Of a DNA stretch of 55,909 nucleotides, positions 962 to 38,292 are shown one piece after another. Location: assembly GCA_024243835.1 (NCBI GenBank), contig JALPMN010000636.1, positions 1 to 55,909 on the forward strand. Reading direction: 5' to 3'. A program made the translations under genes and the position numbers. Source of the DNA: Enteropsectra breve (Eukaryota; Microsporidia). How positions within the stretch are numbered: position 1 is the stretch's first letter; the number at the start of each line of letters is the position of its first letter. A model generated the notes under the pieces. The model worked only from the letters and a program-made list of their open reading frames with translations. It ran no database searches and was not told where the DNA came from.

Positions 962-1080
962 TGTCGAAAACTGGCCGTTCATTAATTAACATATCGTTAT
1001 AATTTTGCATGGATAAAATTTTATTAAAATTTTTACAATCATAATGGATTACGTATCATTTTTACAATACTAATCCAACA
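962..1080 (-). repeat. 3' LTR (element orientation)
   Basis: A 119-bp terminal repeat identical to 4648-4766. The polyprotein stop codon TAG lies inside it at 1070-1072, so the last codons (V-L-D-stop) are LTR sequence. It is preceded in element orientation by the purine tract at 1081-1088. Confidence 0.95.
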
Positions 1081-4000
1081 CCTCCTTTACTAGGATTTCG
1101 TTTACAAATCTTTTCTTGATGTGTGCTTTATTTAGCGTCAGCTTACTTTTTCCATTGCTTACAACATAAGAGTCATTTCCTGCTTTTCCAACAATAGTGT
1201 AGCCTTCTTCCCATTTAGACTCTAATTTTGCCCTTGGCATATCTCGCATTATTAGAACTGCTTGGTCGCATTCGAATTCTTCTTTTATTTTAATTTTCCC
1301 TTTTACAATTTCGTCGTTGTAATTTTCTTTTGTTTTACTCCTTATAATTAAAAGTTCCTCCTTATTAATGGTGACTTGATGCTTACCCAGTTTAATGTCT
1401 ATTGGGATTACTGGTGATATTCCTCTGCGTAATAAATACGGTGACGTTCCTATAGCTCTGTTCGGGCTGATGTTACAAGCGAAGACTGCTTTTCTCACAG
1501 CACTCTCCCATCTGTTTGCTCCGAAATTGCTTAGTTTCATTATTTTGCGCAGAAGCGTTTGATTCGCTCTTTCCACACAACCCATAGATTCATGATGGCC
1601 TACCGCATTATAGTCCCAGACAAACCCTTCTTTCGCTGCTAATTCTTTGCAAAGCGAATTATAAAATTCTCTTCCCCTGTCCGACAGTATCCTCCTAGGT
1701 ATTCCGTGTTTTCTGATGATTAGTTCTTTCACGCATTTAATAATGTTCTCTTGGCTCTTCTCGCTGATTACTTGTGCTTCAATCCATTTGTCAAAATGGT
1801 CGATTGCGACGAAAATAAATTTATTCTCCCCATCTTTAGTAGGTAATCGTCCAATTAAGTCACACTGCCAAAGTTCTCCTGGTCCTGATGTTTCTATTAC
1901 CCTATGCTCAGTATTCCTTCGTTTCCCTCCAATTTTCTTGCAAATTAAGCATTCATTTACGTAAGTTTCGATTTCTTTTTCCATTCCATCCCATTTATAT
2001 TTGTCCTTCATCAGGAACTGCATTGTTTTACTCGTTCCATGGCCAGATGTCTCGTGATAACTTTTAATCACTTCTCCGTGTTGCTCATCCGAATCTGCTA
2101 CTATTTGATTTACCTTATAGTCTATGTCTCTGCTCAGCCCATCTGCGCCATTCATTTCTCCCGCTATGTATTTAACATCGTAATCAAATTCCTGCAATTT
2201 TAAAGTCCATCTCAAAAGCCTAGATGTAGGATTCTTTGCCGTTTTCATACTTTCTAACGCCCTGTGATCCGTCTTTAACGTAAATTTCTTCCCTAACAAA
2301 TACCTTCTGTAATGTTCCATGGATTTTACTGCTGCTAAAAGCTCCTTATCAGTAACACTGTAATTTCTTTGTGCACTATCTAGCGTTTTACTATATGATG
2401 ATATCATTGCTTCATTCCCTTCGCAGTCCTCTTGACTTAAAATTGCGCCTATTGCTGTTTCTGATGCATCAGTTGTCAAAATAAACTCTTTACTAAAGTT
2501 CGGTTGTGTTCGCAGGGTTTTTTCTGACAACAAGTGTCTTGAATCTTTAAATGACTTGATGGTTGGGTCGGTCCATACAATTTTCTTTGAACTTCGTTTG
2601 GTTTCTCCTTTTAATAGCCCGTTTAATGGTTCAACAACTTCTGATAAGTTCGGTATAAATTGCCTGCAATAGTTTAGTAGTCCCAAGTACGATCTCAGCT
2701 CTTTGATGTTATTCGGTCTTCTGTAATTATTAATTGCCTCTACTTTAGACTTTGCCGGTTTGACGCTGTTTCCAGATACAATATTACCTAAAATTTCTAA
2801 TTCTGTCTTGAAAAACTTGCATTTCTTTTTATTTAGTGCTATATTGGCTTGCAGAAGACGCTCCGCAATGATTTTTAAATGGTTTATGTGGTCCTCTGCA
2901 GTCTTCGAGTATATAATGATATCGTCTAGATATGGAAGAACAAAAACACCTCTAATATTATTAAATACAACATCCATGGCCCGTTGAAATGTGGCGGGTG
3001 CGTTACAAAGCCCAAAGGGCATTCTATTGAATTCATAAAGCCCTCCCTTCCATCTAAAAGCTGTTTTCTCCTTATCGGCTTCTACTATTTCTATCTGGTA
3101 ATAGCCACTTGTAGCGTCTAAGCATGTGAAATAGTTGGCACCGCTCAATTCATCCAGTATTTCATCAATTCTCGGTATCGGATAGCAGTCTTTCTTTGTA
3201 ATGTTATTTAATCCTCGAAAATCGATGCATAATCTAATCTCTCCGTCTTTCTTTTTAACCGGTATGATGCTCGATGCCCACGGGCTCATTGAGTCCCTTA
3301 TAATTCCGGCTTGCTTTAGTTTTTTTACTGTTTTATCGATTTCATTTTCCCAAAATTTTGGGATTTGCAGGTTTCGTTGTGTGACTGGCCCCTGTCCCTG
3401 TGTTTCAATTGAGTGTACCCCTATCTTAGACTTTGTAAATTCATCTAATTCCGTTTTAAATAATTTTTCAAAAATTTCAGGTGCTTTATCTTCATATATC
3501 ATTCGGATTTTATTTTGTCTTGTCATTTTTCTTTCCTTAAACAAACACCCCTCCAGAATCTTCAGTCCTATACTAGGATTATCTTGTAAGCTATCGGCCC
3601 CCAAGATCATGTAATCGCCAGGCCCATTAATCGTCACAATTGGCTCCGCCTCGATTTTATTTCCGTCAATATCTATTACTTGTGGGCTCAGTTTCCCTGC
3701 CACTTCTATGTTTTCTCCACAGACCGACTTTAGCTTCGCACTGCAACTTTTGATTTGATCTTTATATTTAGTAGTCAGCTTCTCTGGTATCAGACTTACA
3801 TCAGCTCCCGTATCCAATAGTACTTTTATTGTATCTTTTCCAAGTTTAGCCTCTTTCAAAAAACAAGAGCTATGGTTTTTGATATTGTTACATAAATAAA
3901 TTGAACTGTCTTTATTCAACTGGTTTTCACTTCCGTTTTCAGCATCTTCATATCTTATATCCCTCACGAAACGTCTCTGTGATGAAGGTTGTTTCCTCAT

Positions 4001-4696
4001 CCACCCTTTACTTTCAAGTTTCTTAATTACTGGACAATATTTTGCAGAGTGCTCTCCTTCTCCATGATATGGGCAGTACCATATTTTTGATTGATTTGCT
4101 GCCGTTTTATTGTCGTAGTCATTGGACACTCTGCCAATTACTTTCTCGGGAAAGGCTACCCATGCGGCCTTTTCTGCTGTCCCGAGGAATATTTCCCAAG
4201 TATCTTCAGCAAATAAACATTGCAATAGTATCGATTTTATTCCAGCTGGAGACCTGGAAATCACTTGTCTCATTAGATGCGTGGCATCTATCCCCTGTTT
4301 TGCTTTTATAGCTCCGGCTTCCTCTAACATAAGCGTAAAACTGTTATAATCACTTGCTTCTTTTCTTGCTAGGAATCTAGACAAGATCTCATCTGCCGTT
4401 TTTTGGCTCTCAAATCTTGCAACTATACATTCTGCTAGCTCCTTCCATGTTATAGCTGGATTGTCAGCTATCTTCCCAATTCCCCATTCTGCTGCCGCAC
4501 CTCTAAAACATATTGCAGCTAGCTTAACCTTTCCGTTGTCATCGATTCTTGATAGATTTGCCAGTGTATCTATCCTTTTAACCCAACCTCTTGTATCGTC
4601 CTCTGGCCTTCCAGAGAACTCCCCTACGGCTTTTGCCGTTGTCGCCATGTCGAAAACTGGCCGTTCATTAATTAACATATCGTTATAATTTTGCAT
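1070..4696 (-). CDS. Ty3/Gypsy Gag-Pol polyprotein
   Basis: A 1208-codon single-frame polyprotein. Order: Gag (about 1-205); a variant zinc knuckle C-x2-H-x4-H-x4-C near residue 210; aspartic protease with LLDTGAD (catalytic Asp 295); reverse transcriptase with YLDD (Tyr about 589); RNase H with ILTTDASETAIG and TDHRAL; an HHCC integrase zinc finger; an integrase core with Asp946, Asp1006 and Glu1042 (D,D35E spacing from Asp1006); and a C-terminal GPY/F-like module (KWEEGYTIVG). Gag and Pol are in one frame, with no frameshift or stop between them. The first ATG (4696) is inside the 5' LTR; a second in-frame ATG (4648-4646) straddles the LTR/primer-site junction and would give a protein 16 residues shorter. 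The stop is inside the other LTR. All catalytic residues I can see are intact. Confidence 0.95.
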   Translation of the reverse strand: MQNYNDMLINERPVFDMATTAKAVGEFSGRPEDDTRGWVKRIDTLANLSRIDDNGKVKLAAICFRGAAAEWGIGKIADNPAITWKELAECIVARFESQKTADEILSRFLARKEASDYNSFTLMLEEAGAIKAKQGIDATHLMRQVISRSPAGIKSILLQCLFAEDTWEIFLGTAEKAAWVAFPEKVIGRVSNDYDNKTAANQSKIWYCPYHGEGEHSAKYCPVIKKLESKGWMRKQPSSQRRFVRDIRYEDAENGSENQLNKDSSIYLCNNIKNHSSCFLKEAKLGKDTIKVLLDTGADVSLIPEKLTTKYKDQIKSCSAKLKSVCGENIEVAGKLSPQVIDIDGNKIEAEPIVTINGPGDYMILGADSLQDNPSIGLKILEGCLFKERKMTRQNKIRMIYEDKAPEIFEKLFKTELDEFTKSKIGVHSIETQGQGPVTQRNLQIPKFWENEIDKTVKKLKQAGIIRDSMSPWASSIIPVKKKDGEIRLCIDFRGLNNITKKDCYPIPRIDEILDELSGANYFTCLDATSGYYQIEIVEADKEKTAFRWKGGLYEFNRMPFGLCNAPATFQRAMDVVFNNIRGVFVLPYLDDIIIYSKTAEDHINHLKIIAERLLQANIALNKKKCKFFKTELEILGNIVSGNSVKPAKSKVEAINNYRRPNNIKELRSYLGLLNYCRQFIPNLSEVVEPLNGLLKGETKRSSKKIVWTDPTIKSFKDSRHLLSEKTLRTQPNFSKEFILTTDASETAIGAILSQEDCEGNEAMISSYSKTLDSAQRNYSVTDKELLAAVKSMEHYRRYLLGKKFTLKTDHRALESMKTAKNPTSRLLRWTLKLQEFDYDVKYIAGEMNGADGLSRDIDYKVNQIVADSDEQHGEVIKSYHETSGHGTSKTMQFLMKDKYKWDGMEKEIETYVNECLICKKIGGKRRNTEHRVIETSGPGELWQCDLIGRLPTKDGENKFIFVAIDHFDKWIEAQVISEKSQENIIKCVKELIIRKHGIPRRILSDRGREFYNSLCKELAAKEGFVWDYNAVGHHESMGCVERANQTLLRKIMKLSNFGANRWESAVRKAVFACNISPNRAIGTSPYLLRRGISPVIPIDIKLGKHQVTINKEELLIIRSKTKENYNDEIVKGKIKIKEEFECDQAVLIMRDMPRAKLESKWEEGYTIVGKAGNDSYVVSNGKSKLTLNKAHIKKRFVNEILVKEVLD
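1081..1088 (-). other. Polypurine tract
   Basis: AAAGGAGG on the minus strand abuts the 3' LTR, where plus-strand DNA synthesis would be primed. It also encodes residues K-E near the polyprotein C-terminus. Confidence 0.75.
4635..4647 (-). other. Primer-binding site
   Basis: TGGCGACAACGGC begins at the base after the 5' LTR. A tRNA ending GCCGTTGTCGCCA would prime minus-strand synthesis. It also encodes the residues following the second in-frame Met (M-A-T-T-A). I cannot say which host tRNA matches, because no tRNA gene is in the window. Confidence 0.75.
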
Positions 4697-6691: not shown

Positions 6692-7862
6692 CGGCTAAGA
6701 ACTCTACAAAATTTTAATACTCAAGAAATATTCAGATGACCATGTGTTCCTATTCAGATATTAATCGAGACATATTATACTCCGCTCGCTTGCAGGATAT
6801 AAAGCTCAAGTGCAAAAATACAGTTCTAAAATCGGGCTATATAAAGGAATGATGACAGCACGGGCAAGTAAATGAAGGAATACATAAAAACATTACCGTA
6901 TATTTATAGGATCTCTTTTCAAAATAAATTAAGGTTAGATTTGCAAATGAGTTGCCCAAAATACCAATGTCCAAAAAAGTTAATCCTGCGCCTTTTGTGA
7001 TATGAAATTTGGATTTCAATGCCTAAACTGTAAACTATGAACAAACATTTTGTCGATGACGAAGAAAGCAATATAGATTCGCAGATCTTAAGCAGTTAGT
7101 CAACAAAGAACAAATGGCTATCTAGTAAATAAAGAAAACTAAATCTTTCAAAATCATTCAAAATATTTCTTATTATGTGTGGAAAGACGCTTCGTGTTAA
7201 CAAAAATAATGCAAGCATTTAGTAAGATACTTTTATTGCGCATCATATAGCGCAGTAAAAATTCTAGAAAATTTTTCATATAAATACAAAAAAATTTATT
7301 ACCCTCAAGAAAATGATGAGTAGTGTTATCCCTGACTGAAGATGATGAGGATGCAGATCTGATTCTTCTTTTTATATCAAAGTTTTTGCTTAGAAAGCAT
7401 CTGTCTAACTGGTTTTATCGTATTTTCAATTTTTTGTTTAAATGCTCTTTGTGGCGATGAAAACATCCCAATGATTCCATCTATTTCATTATTTATTCAA
7501 AACTAGAATATTGCCTTCAGTTGTGAAGAATGTCTACCTATTTGTATTACATTTCACGTTTCAACTACTAATACTTATTTATCAAATATCGTGACGAAAA
7601 GATAGTCGTCACTATTGACTATTTGTAAAGTAGATTCTTTTAGATACACTATAAATAGTACGTCCTGTATTACAGATGTGAGAGGCCCCAAAGCATATGC
7701 AGTAGTATGGCATATTAGCAGAAGGCCATTCATTTATTAGGACTGAAAAGAAAACTACGATTGCCAGTTTTTGCTTATTGATGATGGACTTTTGGTTAAA
7801 AGCTTAATGTTTTCCAAAACATGTTTTGAAAAATAAATATTTTGCAAATTTGCACTCTTTCA
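6692..7862. other. Intergenic, no supported gene
   Basis: About 1.2 kb of AT-rich DNA between divergent HSP70 and the ArfGAP. The only longer open frame (6837-7019, minus) starts at TTG and shows no family signal. Confidence 0.6.
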
Positions 7863-28542: not shown

Positions 28543-29331
28543 TAAAACTGATAAAGGGTTGATTAAATATCCTATCTTACAATGATTATTGTCTTCTAGC
28601 TGTAACTGAACAGATAGTCTGTATATAGTAAATAAAGTGCACAGTGCTATTTATACACGTTTTTAAACTGAAACGATTAACACAAGTGATAAAGATGCTC
28701 GATGACAATTATAAAGCTATTACGTTTAATATCAAAAGAAAAATAGCCTTTTTATTTTAAAAGCACAAAATACTGTGGAATAACAATGGTCCGGATGAAA
28801 TTACAAACTCCATGCCGTCCTTTCCATGTGCACATGCAGAATACAACACCCACTAAGAAGCATTTGTGAGGAATATTTGTACATGAAATACTAAAAGAGT
28901 TTGTTTTCCCCTATGTTTAACAAAAAAATAAAATCTTTCTGGTTCTTTCATCATTGCTAATATAAAGAAAAGTTTTCTGTTGCTAAATTAAATCATTATC
29001 ACGAGAAGGTACCAATTTTTGATAAATAAAACTAGAACAAGCACACTACTCTTCAAAAGGGCCAGCTAACATAAAAAGAAAGCTGCAAGGCAAAGATACA
29101 AGGTGAGACTAAGTTTAAAAACAAAAATGAACCATTCTGCCAGCGATGAGATGAAAAGAATATTAAAACTCTCAAAACTGAAACAATTCTCATACGGTAT
29201 GCAATGCCTAATAAATGCCCCATGTAGAGTTTTAATATTCTTTTCATCTCAAGTAGCTTTTTAAAAATAATAATGTTTAAGAATAGCTTTCGGTTAGTGC
29301 TGCAAGAAATATGAAGTGAAGCAACGAGATT
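28543..29331. other. Intergenic with a long hairpin
   Basis: About 790 bp of AT-rich DNA between the MITE and CTP synthase. It contains the 26-bp perfect inverted repeat at 29147-29251 and no supported gene. Confidence 0.55.
29147..29251. repeat. 26-bp perfect inverted repeat with 53-nt loop
   Basis: The arm at 29147-29172 (TGAGATGAAAAGAATATTAA...) is the exact complement of 29226-29251. It lies 80 bp beyond the CTP synthase stop codon. It could be a small-RNA hairpin, a fold-back element remnant or a recent local inversion-duplication. No target duplication is obvious. Confidence 0.8.
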
Positions 29332-34139: not shown

Positions 34140-35294
34140 ATGCCGACAAGCGAGTTTTACGGCATTTATTTCAACATGCTGAAGGCATGTGTGGGCTCTG
34201 GCATCTTAGAGTTTCCTTTTCTGCTGAATAAATACGGGGTGCTGCTTACCAGCTGCTATACGTTTTTGTCTGCGGCAGCGGCAACCGCTGGGATATACAT
34301 CTACATTGATTTGAACGATAAGTATGGGAAAAACAATAGTATGGCCAGTCTTTCGAGGCATATTGTCCGTGGAATGGAAACTTTCGTTAGTTTTGTCCTA
34401 TCCACCAAGTGCTATGTCACTGCGATTATGTATATCGTTCTTATCAACTCGAATTTAAAGATCTTATTAAACGAAGATATTGGAGATGGAGAACGAAACA
34501 GAAGTCGGCTCTTTTATAGAATAGTTGCCAACATAGTTGCTTTCTTGGCAACACAGTTTTTTATAACAAAGACAAATATCAACTCACTCAAAAGAATTTC
34601 ATTTATCGGAATTGTCATGGTACTGGTTCTCTTTATCGGTGCAGCATTTTGCAGCGATAAGAGGGATGGCGAGGTGAAAATGCTTGCTGGGCGGTATAAT
34701 CTCATTGACAACATAGGCACCTTTATATTCGGGTTCAATTGCCACCACACGATTTTTTCAGTGCAGAATGCATCAGCTGTATCAAAAACGAAACTTAAAA
34801 AATACATGGCTGCTGTATTCTCATCAGCATTTGTGATATACATTTGTTTCGCCCTATTAAACTGTGTTTTCCTCAAAAGCCCGCTGCAGAATATATTTGA
34901 GTCTTGGAAGGATTCGAGTGTAAAGCACGCAACTCTGCTCATTTACAGCATGGGGCTAGTTGTAAACACCATCTTACAGCTCCATCCGGTTGTCGACCAT
35001 CTTTCGGATCTACTTCCAGCGTATAAATATTCAAGACAAGGCGTAGGCGCGATTCTTCTGGTCTCAGCATTCACTATCGTATGGTTGTGGAAACTTCCAT
35101 TCGAGAAAATTTCATTGTGGATTGGCCTAATCTTTTCGAACCTTATATGCTTTGGATTCCCCTTTTTATATAGAATGGCAGATAAGTCGAGCATATCTTT
35201 TACCCAAAAAGCCGCAGCCTCTTTACTTCCTATATTTTCCATCCTGTGCTGTTTAAGGATAGTATCAGTTCTGGGCTCTTGGTCTAAAAAATAG
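34140..35294 (+). CDS. Amino-acid transporter (AAAP/Avt family)
   Basis: A 384-residue protein with about ten or eleven hydrophobic helices. The first helix has MLKACVGSGILEFPFLLNKYG, the AAAP family hallmark (G-xG-xL-xxP-xA). The mid-protein GTFIFGFNCHHTIFSVQNA parallels the family's FVFSFTCQHNIFPIYNE. This places it with Avt-type vacuolar/neutral amino-acid transporters (SLC32/36/38 relatives). In a parasite lacking amino-acid synthesis it may supply host amino acids; that is inference. Substrate and membrane cannot be read from the sequence. Length matches minimal family members. Confidence 0.88.
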   Translation: MPTSEFYGIYFNMLKACVGSGILEFPFLLNKYGVLLTSCYTFLSAAAATAGIYIYIDLNDKYGKNNSMASLSRHIVRGMETFVSFVLSTKCYVTAIMYIVLINSNLKILLNEDIGDGERNRSRLFYRIVANIVAFLATQFFITKTNINSLKRISFIGIVMVLVLFIGAAFCSDKRDGEVKMLAGRYNLIDNIGTFIFGFNCHHTIFSVQNASAVSKTKLKKYMAAVFSSAFVIYICFALLNCVFLKSPLQNIFESWKDSSVKHATLLIYSMGLVVNTILQLHPVVDHLSDLLPAYKYSRQGVGAILLVSAFTIVWLWKLPFEKISLWIGLIFSNLICFGFPFLYRMADKSSISFTQKAAASLLPIFSILCCLRIVSVLGSWSKK

Positions 35295-35637
35295 AAAGGT
35301 GGAGTAAATAAATAGAAGATTTGTTACTTGAAATAGTTTTATTGCCCAATATACTGCTTAGTATTATAAAATAAAATTTATTCAATCTAAAAAGCATCCA
35401 TTCAAAAATAAAAGGGGTTGTTGCACAATTCATACTTAAATGGACAACACTACTTTCATGTGTTTCGAATGATGTCACCACCCACTGAAAATCTAGAGTT
35501 AATTTGGGCTTGAAGGCGTACTTTTAGGCAAAAATAGCACACAAAATGCAAGTGTATGAGCCATCCCATTTTGCATATGGCCAAGAATAAGATTAGCATG
35601 TGATTCTCGCGGTGTTTAAAAAATTCCCCTTCGTATT
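35295..35637. other. Intergenic, nothing supported
   Basis: About 340 bp between the transporter stop codon and the MRP RNA start signal. The minus-strand open frame at 35284-35481 shows no family signal. Confidence 0.5.
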
Positions 35638-35660
35638 AAAAATTTTGCAAAAATTGCCCT
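35638..35660 (+). promoter_or_regulatory. Start signal of the MRP RNA gene
   Basis: AAAAATTTTGCAAAAA followed by TTGCCCT, almost the same as the signal before eL27 (48712-48737). The folded RNA begins at the very next base, 35661. Confidence 0.65.
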
Positions 35661-35816
35661 GTTGGGCAGAAGAACAGCATTGGAAATTTTTTTCCAAGGA
35701 AAGTCCTCGGCACTAACTGAAAAGTAAGCTTAGATGCTTCTCTACGCCTGAAACTAGATTTATGCTGTTGGGTATCGATCTACCAAACTTAATGAGGCTT
35801 ACTCTCTGTACCCAAC
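35661..35816 (+). ncRNA. RNase MRP RNA (RNase P/MRP family)
   Basis: A 156-nt segment that folds as an RNase P/MRP RNA. P1: GUUGGG-CAGA (35661-35670) with UCUG-UA-CCCAAC (35805-35816). P2: AACAGCAU (35673-35680) with AUGCUGUU (35762-35769). P3: UGGAAA/UUUCCA hairpin (35681-35696). CR-I: GGAAAGUCCUCGG (35698-35710). CR-V: UGAGGCUUACUCUC from 35793. P4 pairs 35702-35709 with 35793-35799 and leaves U704 bulged, the universal hallmark. CR-I and CR-V resemble human MRP (GGAAAGUCCCCGG; GGGCUCAUUCUC) more than RNase P, and a GARAR-type GAAAA (35719-35723) follows CR-I. Role: cleavage of pre-rRNA in the nucleolus. The RNA is very short; a TTTT at 35819-35822 could terminate Pol III. Confidence 0.78.
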
Positions 35817-36945
35817 CATTTTATTATCAGCTTTACTTTTTTATTGTGTATAATTCAAAAAAATAAAAAGTAGTGTGGCTACTTGCTTTTGTTATTTTAA
35901 TAATTCATAGCCAGCAGGCAAAAATGTGATTTGAGGGATTTTGTTTTTCTAGATGTCTTCTCAGCCTAAGAATTTTGTCTTAAAAACTAAATGCAACCCT
36001 TTGGTATGGCTCTCGCCAGTTTAAAACAAGCTAGTGCGCTCACACGCTTGTTTTTTAAAAACTTCTAAAGTAAATTTAGAAAAGCCTCTGATTTAGTGAT
36101 AGTTCTTATTTTAGAATTTCAAAACTCCACAGTAATTTAGCGGAAGTTTAATAGAATTACGTAAGCTCAAGGCGGTCATATAACATTTTTTTACAGAAGA
36201 TAGCACAAATGCGAGTTCGGGCAGCACAAAGAAATGCATGGCTTAGTATAAATGCAACTAGGTTTAGCGAAAGTGCAAAAACACTAAGATTGCATATTTA
36301 TAAACGCGCCATTTAAAATTTGTTCTCCTTATTTTAAATACGAGATTCTAATTTGCCCTTGTTTTGATGATGATCTGCTAGAAGATGGGATGCTGGTATC
36401 ATCTAATGATGGCTAACTTTCACGCAAATATTCAGGGTATCTTGCAGCAGTCTATCCATCAAACATACACTGTCTTAGAAAGGCTCGCCCTTGTACAGTG
36501 GTACTAGCATCTGAAAAACCATTTATAAGAAGTTTTTGTTCTATTTTATGTAAAAATTTTTAAAAAAGTCACTAAGGGAACTGCATAGAAGGGCGGTCTT
36601 AAGTTTCTACTGTGTTTCGTCTTAACGAAACATCACGTTTATAAGAACAATCTTAGAGTCTTTTCTTTCGCCAAAATTCATTTTTCAACAGTTCTTCAGG
36701 CATTCACGAAGTAAACACAATGTAATGTCATTCGGTGTTCAGTGATAGCGTGATATAGTTTCCCTTGGTACTGCAGAAAACATGCTAAGTATAAAAGCAA
36801 TCGTTAGTGCTAAATGAATTTTATTTAAAAATGGAACGTGTAGTCGCTATGAAACGCATAGTCTTTGTTGAAATCCAACAAACTGCTTACCACATCAAAT
36901 ACTTAAAGAACATTTAAAATATTAATTTATTTTTTTGCTGGTTGA
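35817..36945. other. Intergenic with a weak RNA candidate
   Basis: About 1.1 kb with no supported ORF. It includes the box C/D-like candidate at 36357-36518. Confidence 0.5.
36357..36518 (+). ncRNA. Box C/D-like RNA candidate (weak)
   Basis: After a TTTGCCCTT string there is GTTTTGATGATGA, with a box C-like TGATGA. About 150 bases later comes CTGAAAAAC, with a box D-like CTGA and a tail complementary to GTTTT. The order stem-C-D-stem fits a C/D RNA, but the length is large and no guide region can be shown. Confidence 0.22.
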
Positions 36946-38292
36946 TTAGCTATTAGCTGCACCAAGAATCTCTTGTGCTGCCATATAATTAATATCGCTT
37001 TCTGGCGTGCCTAATTTATTTTCATGAAGTATTGGTGAGCCAGGTGTCTGTAATTCGCCCTTGGCTGTTGCTGCGGAAGAATCGTCATCAATCAGATCTT
37101 TTATAATTTCGTGTTTTGTTGGCAGCGAAGTTGATTGCCCCTTGCTGCTATTTGCTGGCAGAGTGCTTTTCATATCAGCCGAGTTCTTTGCTGCGGCTAC
37201 TCCATTTGTGATGTTCACTAATGTGTCGTGCAGAATGTCAAGCGTTTCTTTGTCATGTTTCCCGAATTCATCTGATGGAGTCTCATTTCCAGTTGTCAGC
37301 ATCTGGTCGTTAATCTCATTATTAAGATCAATAGCTGAAGCCCTGTTGTTTGTATGCATGCTTTCAATCGCACTTTTTTGAATGCTGGATGAATTACCCG
37401 ACGAATCTTTATTTGGCCTTACCATTTTCATATTGATCAATGGAACATGTGGGATATTATTCCTGGTATTTTCCATTTCCTCAGAAGAAGAATCTGATGA
37501 CTCCTCAGGCTTTACATTCGTTCCATGGCGTTTAGAGGCCATATACTCACTCGTGGGCATCTTATTACCGTAGTTCTCAGCACCACTGGAGAAGCGTGAT
37601 TTTTTATTATGTTCTTGGATATGATTGAAAATACCATGTGCACCTGTGCCAGAGTTTTGCATTCCCAGTTTCTTCGGCGAATACGAAACTGAAAGAGTTT
37701 CAGGGATTTTTGAAACATTTAAATTCTCGCTGTGCGGCTGGCCTGCTTCGTCAGTATCAAAGCTTGCTTTATTTGGTATTTCTGATGCGAAAATACGATA
37801 CTTTGCGCCATCTGTTGGCGCTTTCCTGCGTTCTAGAGGCATTGTGCTGTTTGCGTAGTATCCATTTTCTTGCATACTGTTGCCTGAAAGATGTCTTCCA
37901 GTCAAATCACTGTAGTCTAGTTTTATTTTAGCAGGAGACACATCCGCATTACCGAGACTTGCGCCATCCGGGGCAATCACTGTTACTGGCTTGTTACTAT
38001 GGATCTGGCTATTTTTGAGATCAGTCTTTAAATTTTTTATTTCTGCCGACAGATCTTCAACTACTTTCGTAAGTGTCTCTAATTTCTTGTCTTCCGTGCT
38101 ATGCTTTTCGGATGTGATCTCTTTGGTTGGCTTAAAGGAGAGTATCTTCATGAAGCTAAACTCTGGCCTTGACTCCTTGAGTAAATTCTTATTTTTTAAC
38201 CTGTTCTTGAAAAACCTCTTATCGACCAGCAAAAGCCCCGCCGTTATTACTCCGAAGCAGGTGATCAGTGCAAGTTTGGAGGAATTCTTCAT
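36946..38292 (-). CDS. Hypothetical signal-anchored, disordered protein
   Basis: A 448-residue protein I do not recognise. One hydrophobic segment at residues about 7-23 (LALITCFGVITAGLLLV) follows a basic start and would act as a signal anchor. A short coiled coil follows (EDKKLETLTKVVEDLSAEIK). The remaining 330 residues are rich in Ser, Asn, Asp, Glu and Lys, including a phosphorylation-prone run (EESSDSSSEE), and look disordered. It could be a cell-surface, ER or spore-wall-associated protein; there is no family evidence. The reading frame is clean and long, so it is likely real. Confidence 0.7.
   Translation of the reverse strand: MKNSSKLALITCFGVITAGLLLVDKRFFKNRLKNKNLLKESRPEFSFMKILSFKPTKEITSEKHSTEDKKLETLTKVVEDLSAEIKNLKTDLKNSQIHSNKPVTVIAPDGASLGNADVSPAKIKLDYSDLTGRHLSGNSMQENGYYANSTMPLERRKAPTDGAKYRIFASEIPNKASFDTDEAGQPHSENLNVSKIPETLSVSYSPKKLGMQNSGTGAHGIFNHIQEHNKKSRFSSGAENYGNKMPTSEYMASKRHGTNVKPEESSDSSSEEMENTRNNIPHVPLINMKMVRPNKDSSGNSSSIQKSAIESMHTNNRASAIDLNNEINDQMLTTGNETPSDEFGKHDKETLDILHDTLVNITNGVAAAKNSADMKSTLPANSSKGQSTSLPTKHEIIKDLIDDDSSAATAKGELQTPGSPILHENKLGTPESDINYMAAQEILGAANS

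Follow-up and report, generated by a model that had tools for sequence, protein, structure and literature searches.

RNase MRP is a ribosome-processing enzyme with an RNA core. In the microsporidium Enteropsectra breve, a parasitic fungus-like microbe, a segment of 156 nt on the forward strand of contig JALPMN010000636.1 (positions 35661–35816) was proposed in a first-pass annotation to encode a very small RNase MRP RNA. This locus raises the question whether it is indeed a gene for RNase MRP RNA, or rather a gene for the related RNase P RNA, a decayed copy or a chance resemblance. Here we analysed the locus within the whole stretch of 55,909 nt that carries it (from here: the window) and within the 3.96-Mb assembly GCA_024243835.1. 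Based on homology in sequence and structure, we conclude with a probability of about 0.96 that 35661–35816 (+) encodes a microsporidian RNase MRP RNA; a single copy of the gene was found in the assembly.

The gene is located in a 1.65-kb gap between the converging open reading frames (ORFs) 34140–35294 (+) and 36946–38292 (−). Six ORFs starting with ATG and encoding at least 30 aa are listed in this gap, and one of them, of 34 aa, overlaps the RNA gene. Further downstream in the gap, an inverted repeat, AAAACAAGC...GCTTGTTTT, was noticed by eye at 36023–36054. A Pfam scan of ten long ORFs of the window returned matches for eight, including HSP70, Sec23/24, CTP synthase, a HECT ligase and a class II tRNA synthetase. 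The closest named relatives of the HECT protein were all microsporidian, namely those of Pancytospora philotis and P. epiphaga with 42–43% identity, followed by Vittaforma and others (47 matches, the first being the protein of the window itself; 7994 candidates scored); no confirmed relative was found among viral contigs. At 1070–4696 (−), an ORF of 1208 aa shows the Pfam domain order protease, reverse transcriptase, RNase H and integrase, which we read as a Ty3/gypsy-type retroelement. Weak MIR1886 matches at 29145–29253 on both strands (E = 0.0051 and 0.0086; 34.3 and 33.5 bits versus a cut-off of 62) probably reflect just an inverted repeat.

Covariance-model match and catalytic domain

The Rfam covariance model for RNase MRP RNA, RF00030, aligned end to end (model positions 1–266) to 35660–35816 with a score of 49.1 bits. 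The corresponding E-values were 8e-13 for a stretch of 701 bases, 6.4e-11 for the whole window against all of Rfam and 1.0e-12 in the whole-genome search. The gathering cut-off of the model is 50 bits. Because the score lies 0.9 bits below it, a default Rfam scan lists nothing for 35661–35816, and the match was recovered in E-value mode. Scoring with covariance models had been set beforehand as a check of the annotation, and its outcome was a full-length match as MRP rather than P, 0.9 bits short of the cut-off. In the entire assembly, RF00030 gave three matches at E ≤ 10 (49.1, 13.6 and 11.6 bits; all 19 candidates scored), leaving a gap of 35 bits between the locus and the second-best match, and the sequence itself has a single DNA match in the assembly. 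Matches to RF00030 below the cut-off (E ≤ 10) were also obtained in 13 of 14 prokaryotic control genomes; prokaryotes are not known to have an RNase MRP. Weak matches to this model therefore say little, and a match counts as evidence for MRP only by the height of its score.

The RF00030 alignment and folding delimit a catalytic domain (C-domain) in which P1, P2, P3, the P4 pseudoknot with its bulged U, CR-I, CR-V and P19 are all present, as shown computationally. The elements named in the first-pass annotation are found at the stated place. P1 is formed by GUUGGGCAGA (35661–35670) and UCUG-ua-CCCAAC (35805–35816; paired bases 35805–35808 and 35811–35816, with the UA bulge at 35809–35810). All 10 model pairs are standard, and in 5 of them both bases deviate from the consensus, according to our own reading of the alignment. 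In P2, formed by AACAGC (35673–35678) and GCUGUU (35764–35769), the same reading found standard pairs in 6 of 6 cases, with both bases changed relative to the consensus in 3. The annotation had suggested looking for compensatory changes in P1 and P2; two-sided differences from the family consensus are seen in P1, P2 and P4. The P2 helix had been described as 8 bp long at this place; the place holds, the length probably does not. P2 probably has 6 bp since the Rfam model leaves the AU/AU bases (35679–35680 with 35762–35763) as unpaired joining bases; as pairs of an 8-bp helix they would use the last two bases of CR-IV.

P3 is a hairpin of 6 bp, UGGAAA-UUUU-UUUCCA (35681–35696), with a loop of four U, without an internal loop and without the distal half known as P3b. 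It is followed by CR-I, GGAAAGUCCUCGG (35698–35710), which is identical to the RF00030 consensus at 12 of 13 positions and to that of the nuclear RNase P model RF00009 at 8 of 13. CR-V, AAUGAGGCUUACUCUC (35791–35806), matches the two consensus sequences at 14 of 16 and 11 of 16 positions, respectively. These hand counts on the alignments agree with the earlier impression that both elements resemble MRP more than P. The 5′ strand of P4, AAG-(U35704)-CCUC, is located within 35701–35708 (35701–35703 and 35705–35708 around the bulged U35704), and its 3′ strand GAGGCUU at 35794–35800 within CR-V. CR-I departs from the consensus only at 35707 (C to U), and this base faces a change from G to A at 35795 in CR-V, so that the P4 pair is kept (CCCC/GGGG to CCUC/GAGG); CR-V shows one further departure, U to C. 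As P4 is a pseudoknot, its pairs are not scored by the covariance model. P19 can fold as a hairpin with a stem of 4 bp, GGUA-UCGAUC-UACC (35771–35784), whereas the pairing that the Rfam model itself assigns to this element contains non-standard pairs.

Specificity domain, CR-IV and a separate RNase P RNA

Between the catalytic elements, the specificity domain (S-domain) measures 40 nt from P5 to P5′ if the putative P5 is accepted, or 45 nt from CR-I to the 8-nt reading of CR-IV. It had been described as reduced and as containing a GAAAA motif, both of which hold, and as about 50 nt long, which is an overestimate. The MRP-specific GARAR sequence is present, as the computational analysis shows, in the form of GAAAA at 35719–35723; in the RF00030 alignment it lies beneath the consensus GAGAG, shifted by one base due to a gap. 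In published accounts, a GARAR (or GARA) loop on the P8 stem is a mark of MRP RNAs (excerpts of PMC13184271 and PMC1796607), and GARAR cross-links to the substrate (PMC3737539, in part). The plan unique to MRP further comprises a 3-bp P5 beside CR-I, the GARAR P8 and a CR-IV of 6 nt, compared with 8 nt for the CR-IV of RNase P (PMC13184271, in part).

A corresponding fold can be drawn here. The predicted P5 pairs GGC (35709–35711), which adjoins P4 and shares its first two bases with the end of CR-I, with GCC (35746–35748); the P8 hairpin ACU-GAAA-AGU (35716–35725) holds the GARAR motif, and a putative P10-like hairpin, AAGC-UUAGAU-GCUU, follows at 35726–35739. All belong to the same suboptimal fold. 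When the S-domain is folded alone, this arrangement of P5, P8 and P10 is second-best with −6.8 kcal/mol, and the best structure is a single arm pairing 35709–35718 with 35727–35738 (−6.9 kcal/mol). With P1 to P3 held, the single arm dominates the constrained ensemble with pair probabilities of 0.82–0.91. In each of the two leading folds, GAAAA is part of a loop; the single-arm fold lacks P5, and the ACU/AGU stem occurs only in the second-best one. Although the energy rules favour the single arm, we consider it most likely on comparative grounds that the S-domain consists of P5, P8 and one short hairpin.

CR-IV (35756–35763) is ambiguous, as it can be read as AUUUAU (6 nt, 35758–35763) or as AGAUUUAU (8 nt). 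The rule given for MRP RNAs is a length of 6 nt in the context AnAGUnA (parts of PMC1796607, PMC13184271 and PMC3228867). The RF00030 alignment places CR-IV without an insertion, which equals the 6-nt reading; AUUUAU retains the three conserved A's of AnAGnnA, and the conserved G is replaced by U. AGAUUUAU retains AG but has 8 nt, the typical length stated for RNase P. In either reading, CR-IV of this MRP RNA is atypical.

The 8-nt reading, together with the P1–P4 core that is common to P and MRP, would be compatible with an RNA that cuts pre-tRNA, either the nuclear RNase P RNA itself or an additional divergent one (CR-IV rule from an excerpt of PMC13184271). Against this stands a full RNase P RNA of 237 nt encoded elsewhere in the assembly, on the reverse strand at C10:10603–10839 (locus L005), which scores 77.5 bits with RF00009 at a cut-off of 28 and has the P-type CR-I GGAAGGUCUGAGAC and CR-V AAUUCAGACUACUCUC. 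The presence of this separate gene makes a divergent P RNA at 35661–35816 unlikely. The two RNAs resemble each other in P3, which in the RNase P RNA also is a simple hairpin (AGGAUUA-GCGA-UAAUCUU, with a GCGA loop), and in an upstream AAATTT...CCC sequence. They differ in length, in the type of CR-I and CR-V, in the 8-nt CR-IV AGUCGAAU of the RNase P RNA and in its larger S-domain. At 35661–35816, the P-type features are missing (8/13 in CR-I, 11/16 in CR-V and an S-domain of about 40 nt), and CR-I, CR-V and GARAR are instead of the MRP type. The clan model listed for the locus was RF00030, with no mention of a left-out clan match, unlike at L005. In the whole-genome search with RF00009 (E ≤ 10), the locus was not listed among the 15 of 158 candidates that were scored. 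Moreover, a part of the RNase P S-domain reads the T and D loops of its substrate (PMC3737539, in part), and an S-domain of 40 nt would offer no space for such a part. We therefore regard an RNase P function as very improbable. The original assignment to RNase MRP is supported by the end-to-end match to RF00030 and by the distinct RNase P RNA elsewhere.

Upstream signal, decay and chance

Upstream of the MRP RNA gene, on the same strand, an AAATTT-like sequence, TAAAAATTTTG (35637–35647), and a CCC-like sequence (35657–35659) make up a candidate transcription signal of the AAATTT...CCC type described for microsporidian protein genes (PMC2803860, in part). TAAAAATTTTG is common to the 60 bases preceding the MRP and the RNase P RNA genes, where it starts at −24 and −21, respectively. 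When 4000 intergenic 60-mers were drawn at random from the window, 14 shared an equally long word with the RNase P upstream region, and one of these 14 had an equally small difference in offset. In the window, TAAAAATTTTG occurs three times on the forward and once on the reverse strand. Both RNA genes have AAATTT followed by CCC ending at most 8 nt from the RNA start. For a motif chosen after being seen, this arrangement is found within 8 nt of 68 of 19969 intergenic positions on the forward and 28 of 19969 on the reverse strand. The strict form was found within 12 nt of 4 of 26 ORF starts. No AAATTT was present in the inspected upstream bases of the U6 gene, which scores 35.4 bits and hence below its cut-off of 44. 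At the 3′ end, T-runs within 35819–35842 (+) (T4 at 35819–35822 and T6 at 35837–35842) are weak candidates for a Pol III stop, as TTTT follows within 12 nt of 2800 of the 21063 intergenic positions of the forward strand.

Elsewhere in the window, a very compact C/D-box snoRNA is likely encoded at 7307–7367 (+). By eye, its boxes are C (ATGATGA, 7313–7319), D′ (CTGA, 7336–7339), C′ (ATGATGA, 7342–7348) and D (CTGA, 7359–7362), enclosed by a stem AAGAA/TTCTT. Four C/D models of Rfam (snoR38, snoPyro_CD, sR2 and sR55) match below their cut-offs (E = 0.0033–0.13). The sequence GTTATCCCTGA before D′ is complementary to CAGGGATAAC, which we take to be a conserved stretch of LSU rRNA, in line with snoR38/snR38. 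By eye, this candidate also is preceded by the signal (AAATTT at 7292–7297 and CCC at 7302–7304).

The score just under the gathering cut-off, the short S-domain, the truncated P3 and the atypical CR-IV could also be taken as marks of a decayed MRP RNA pseudogene. This we consider more improbable still than an RNase P RNA. P1 and P2 contain no non-standard model pair, and in half of their model pairs both bases are changed, which decay would not produce; a missing P3b is the condition described for microsporidia (PMC1796607, in part); the upstream AAATTT...CCC signal is present; and no other significant copy was found in the assembly, which comprises 155 contigs and is maybe incomplete.

How much the architecture by itself can prove was evaluated with a geometry descriptor without conserved sequence (P1 of 6 bp, P2 of 6 bp, a P3 hairpin of at least 5 bp, and P4 of 3 + 4 bp with a bulged U). 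On both strands of the window it matched once, at the MRP locus, and it matched four times in 40 random windows generated by a first-order Markov model of matching composition, i.e. about 0.1 times per window. As roughly one in ten random windows is matched, geometry alone is no proof. Folding energy gave a modest z-score of −1.85, with 11 of 200 shuffled sequences folding as well and 189 worse, in a calculation that cannot count the P4 pseudoknot. The case for MRP rests on sequence plus structure together. Despite the four matches of the bare-geometry descriptor, a chance resemblance in AT-rich intergenic DNA is practically negligible in view of the E-value over the window and the 35 bits that separate the locus from the second-best RF00030 match in the 3.96-Mb assembly.

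Size, protein partners and possible meaning

Passages of PMC3228867 name the MRP RNAs of Encephalitozoon cuniculi and Nosema locustae as the shortest, and P3b and P6 are described as absent from microsporidian MRP RNAs (PMC1796607, in part). The RNA of E. breve resembles those of E. cuniculi and Nosema/Antonospora locustae in being very short and in lacking P3b (from the same two sources). With the RF00030 consensus it shares the full-length alignment, CR-I (12/13), CR-V (14/16), GARAR, P1, P2 and the P19 hairpin. It deviates from it in size, with 157 bases for 266 model positions, and in having inserts of 4, 7 and 8 bases where the model hides 35 positions in P3 and 16 and 72 in the S-domain. 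The MRP RNA of Giardia intestinalis likewise is short and has a P3 without an internal loop; it measures 189 nt in assemblages A and B according to the coordinates in Table 2, compared with 156 nt here, and assemblage E is given with 199 nt in the table and 189 in a figure legend (all PMC3228867, in part). Excerpts of PMC3919561 and PMC6461891 contained nothing on microsporidian MRP RNA itself, and a search for relatives with a CR-I...CR-V DNA pattern in viral and genome contig collections gave no match. The annotation had placed the RNA, at 156 nt, among the shortest of its kind, which fits the published lengths for Giardia (189 nt) and the ranking of the microsporidian RNAs as shortest (PMC3228867, in part). 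The small size results from a P3 without its distal half and an S-domain down to about 40 nt. Short microsporidian MRP RNAs without P3b were thus already known, and it is well supported that the RNA of E. breve is a clear further example.

Protein partners were searched in the assembly. Matches were obtained for two subunits that RNase P and MRP share, POP1 (POP1_N, 32.5 bits) and p29 (RNase_P-MRP_p29, 30.2 bits); for Rpp20 and Alba there was nothing at E ≤ 1 and no candidate past a first look. Since POP1_N and p29 themselves scored just 32.5 and 30.2 bits, missing Rpp20 and Alba in this fast-evolving genome is weak evidence. It would be in keeping with the lack of P3b in the two RNAs because Pop6/Pop7 bind P3 (PMC7351766, in part). 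A search of the assembly with the fungal SRP RNA model RF01502 likewise gave nothing (E ≤ 1).

By analogy with the family, the RNA would assemble with Pop1, Pop4/Rpp29 and partners into a ribonucleoprotein with a catalytic P4/CR-I/CR-V core. The GAAAA loop would pack on P4, P5 and CR-IV may form a cradle for a single-stranded substrate, and the complex would cleave the rRNA precursor between the SSU and LSU rRNAs. Tentatively, and with considerable doubt, we propose that E. breve may have a near-minimal MRP in which the C-domain is combined with an S-domain of 40 nt and a CR-IV of RNase P length, that P3b may have been lost from the MRP and P RNAs together with Pop6/Pop7 (Rpp20/Rpp25), and that the AAATTT...CCC signal may be shared with ribosomal-protein mRNAs. 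If this were true, a single promoter type would serve both the components of the ribosome and the RNAs involved in their processing.

With this gene, one small genome now provides both a very short MRP RNA of defined extent and the RNase P RNA that accompanies it. The pair is useful for considering the lower size limit of this ribozyme and the thresholds for its detection, given that a default Rfam scan fell short by 0.9 bits. As P3b is absent in both RNAs, they would represent a natural deletion experiment on ribonucleoprotein assembly if the loss of Pop6/Pop7 is real.
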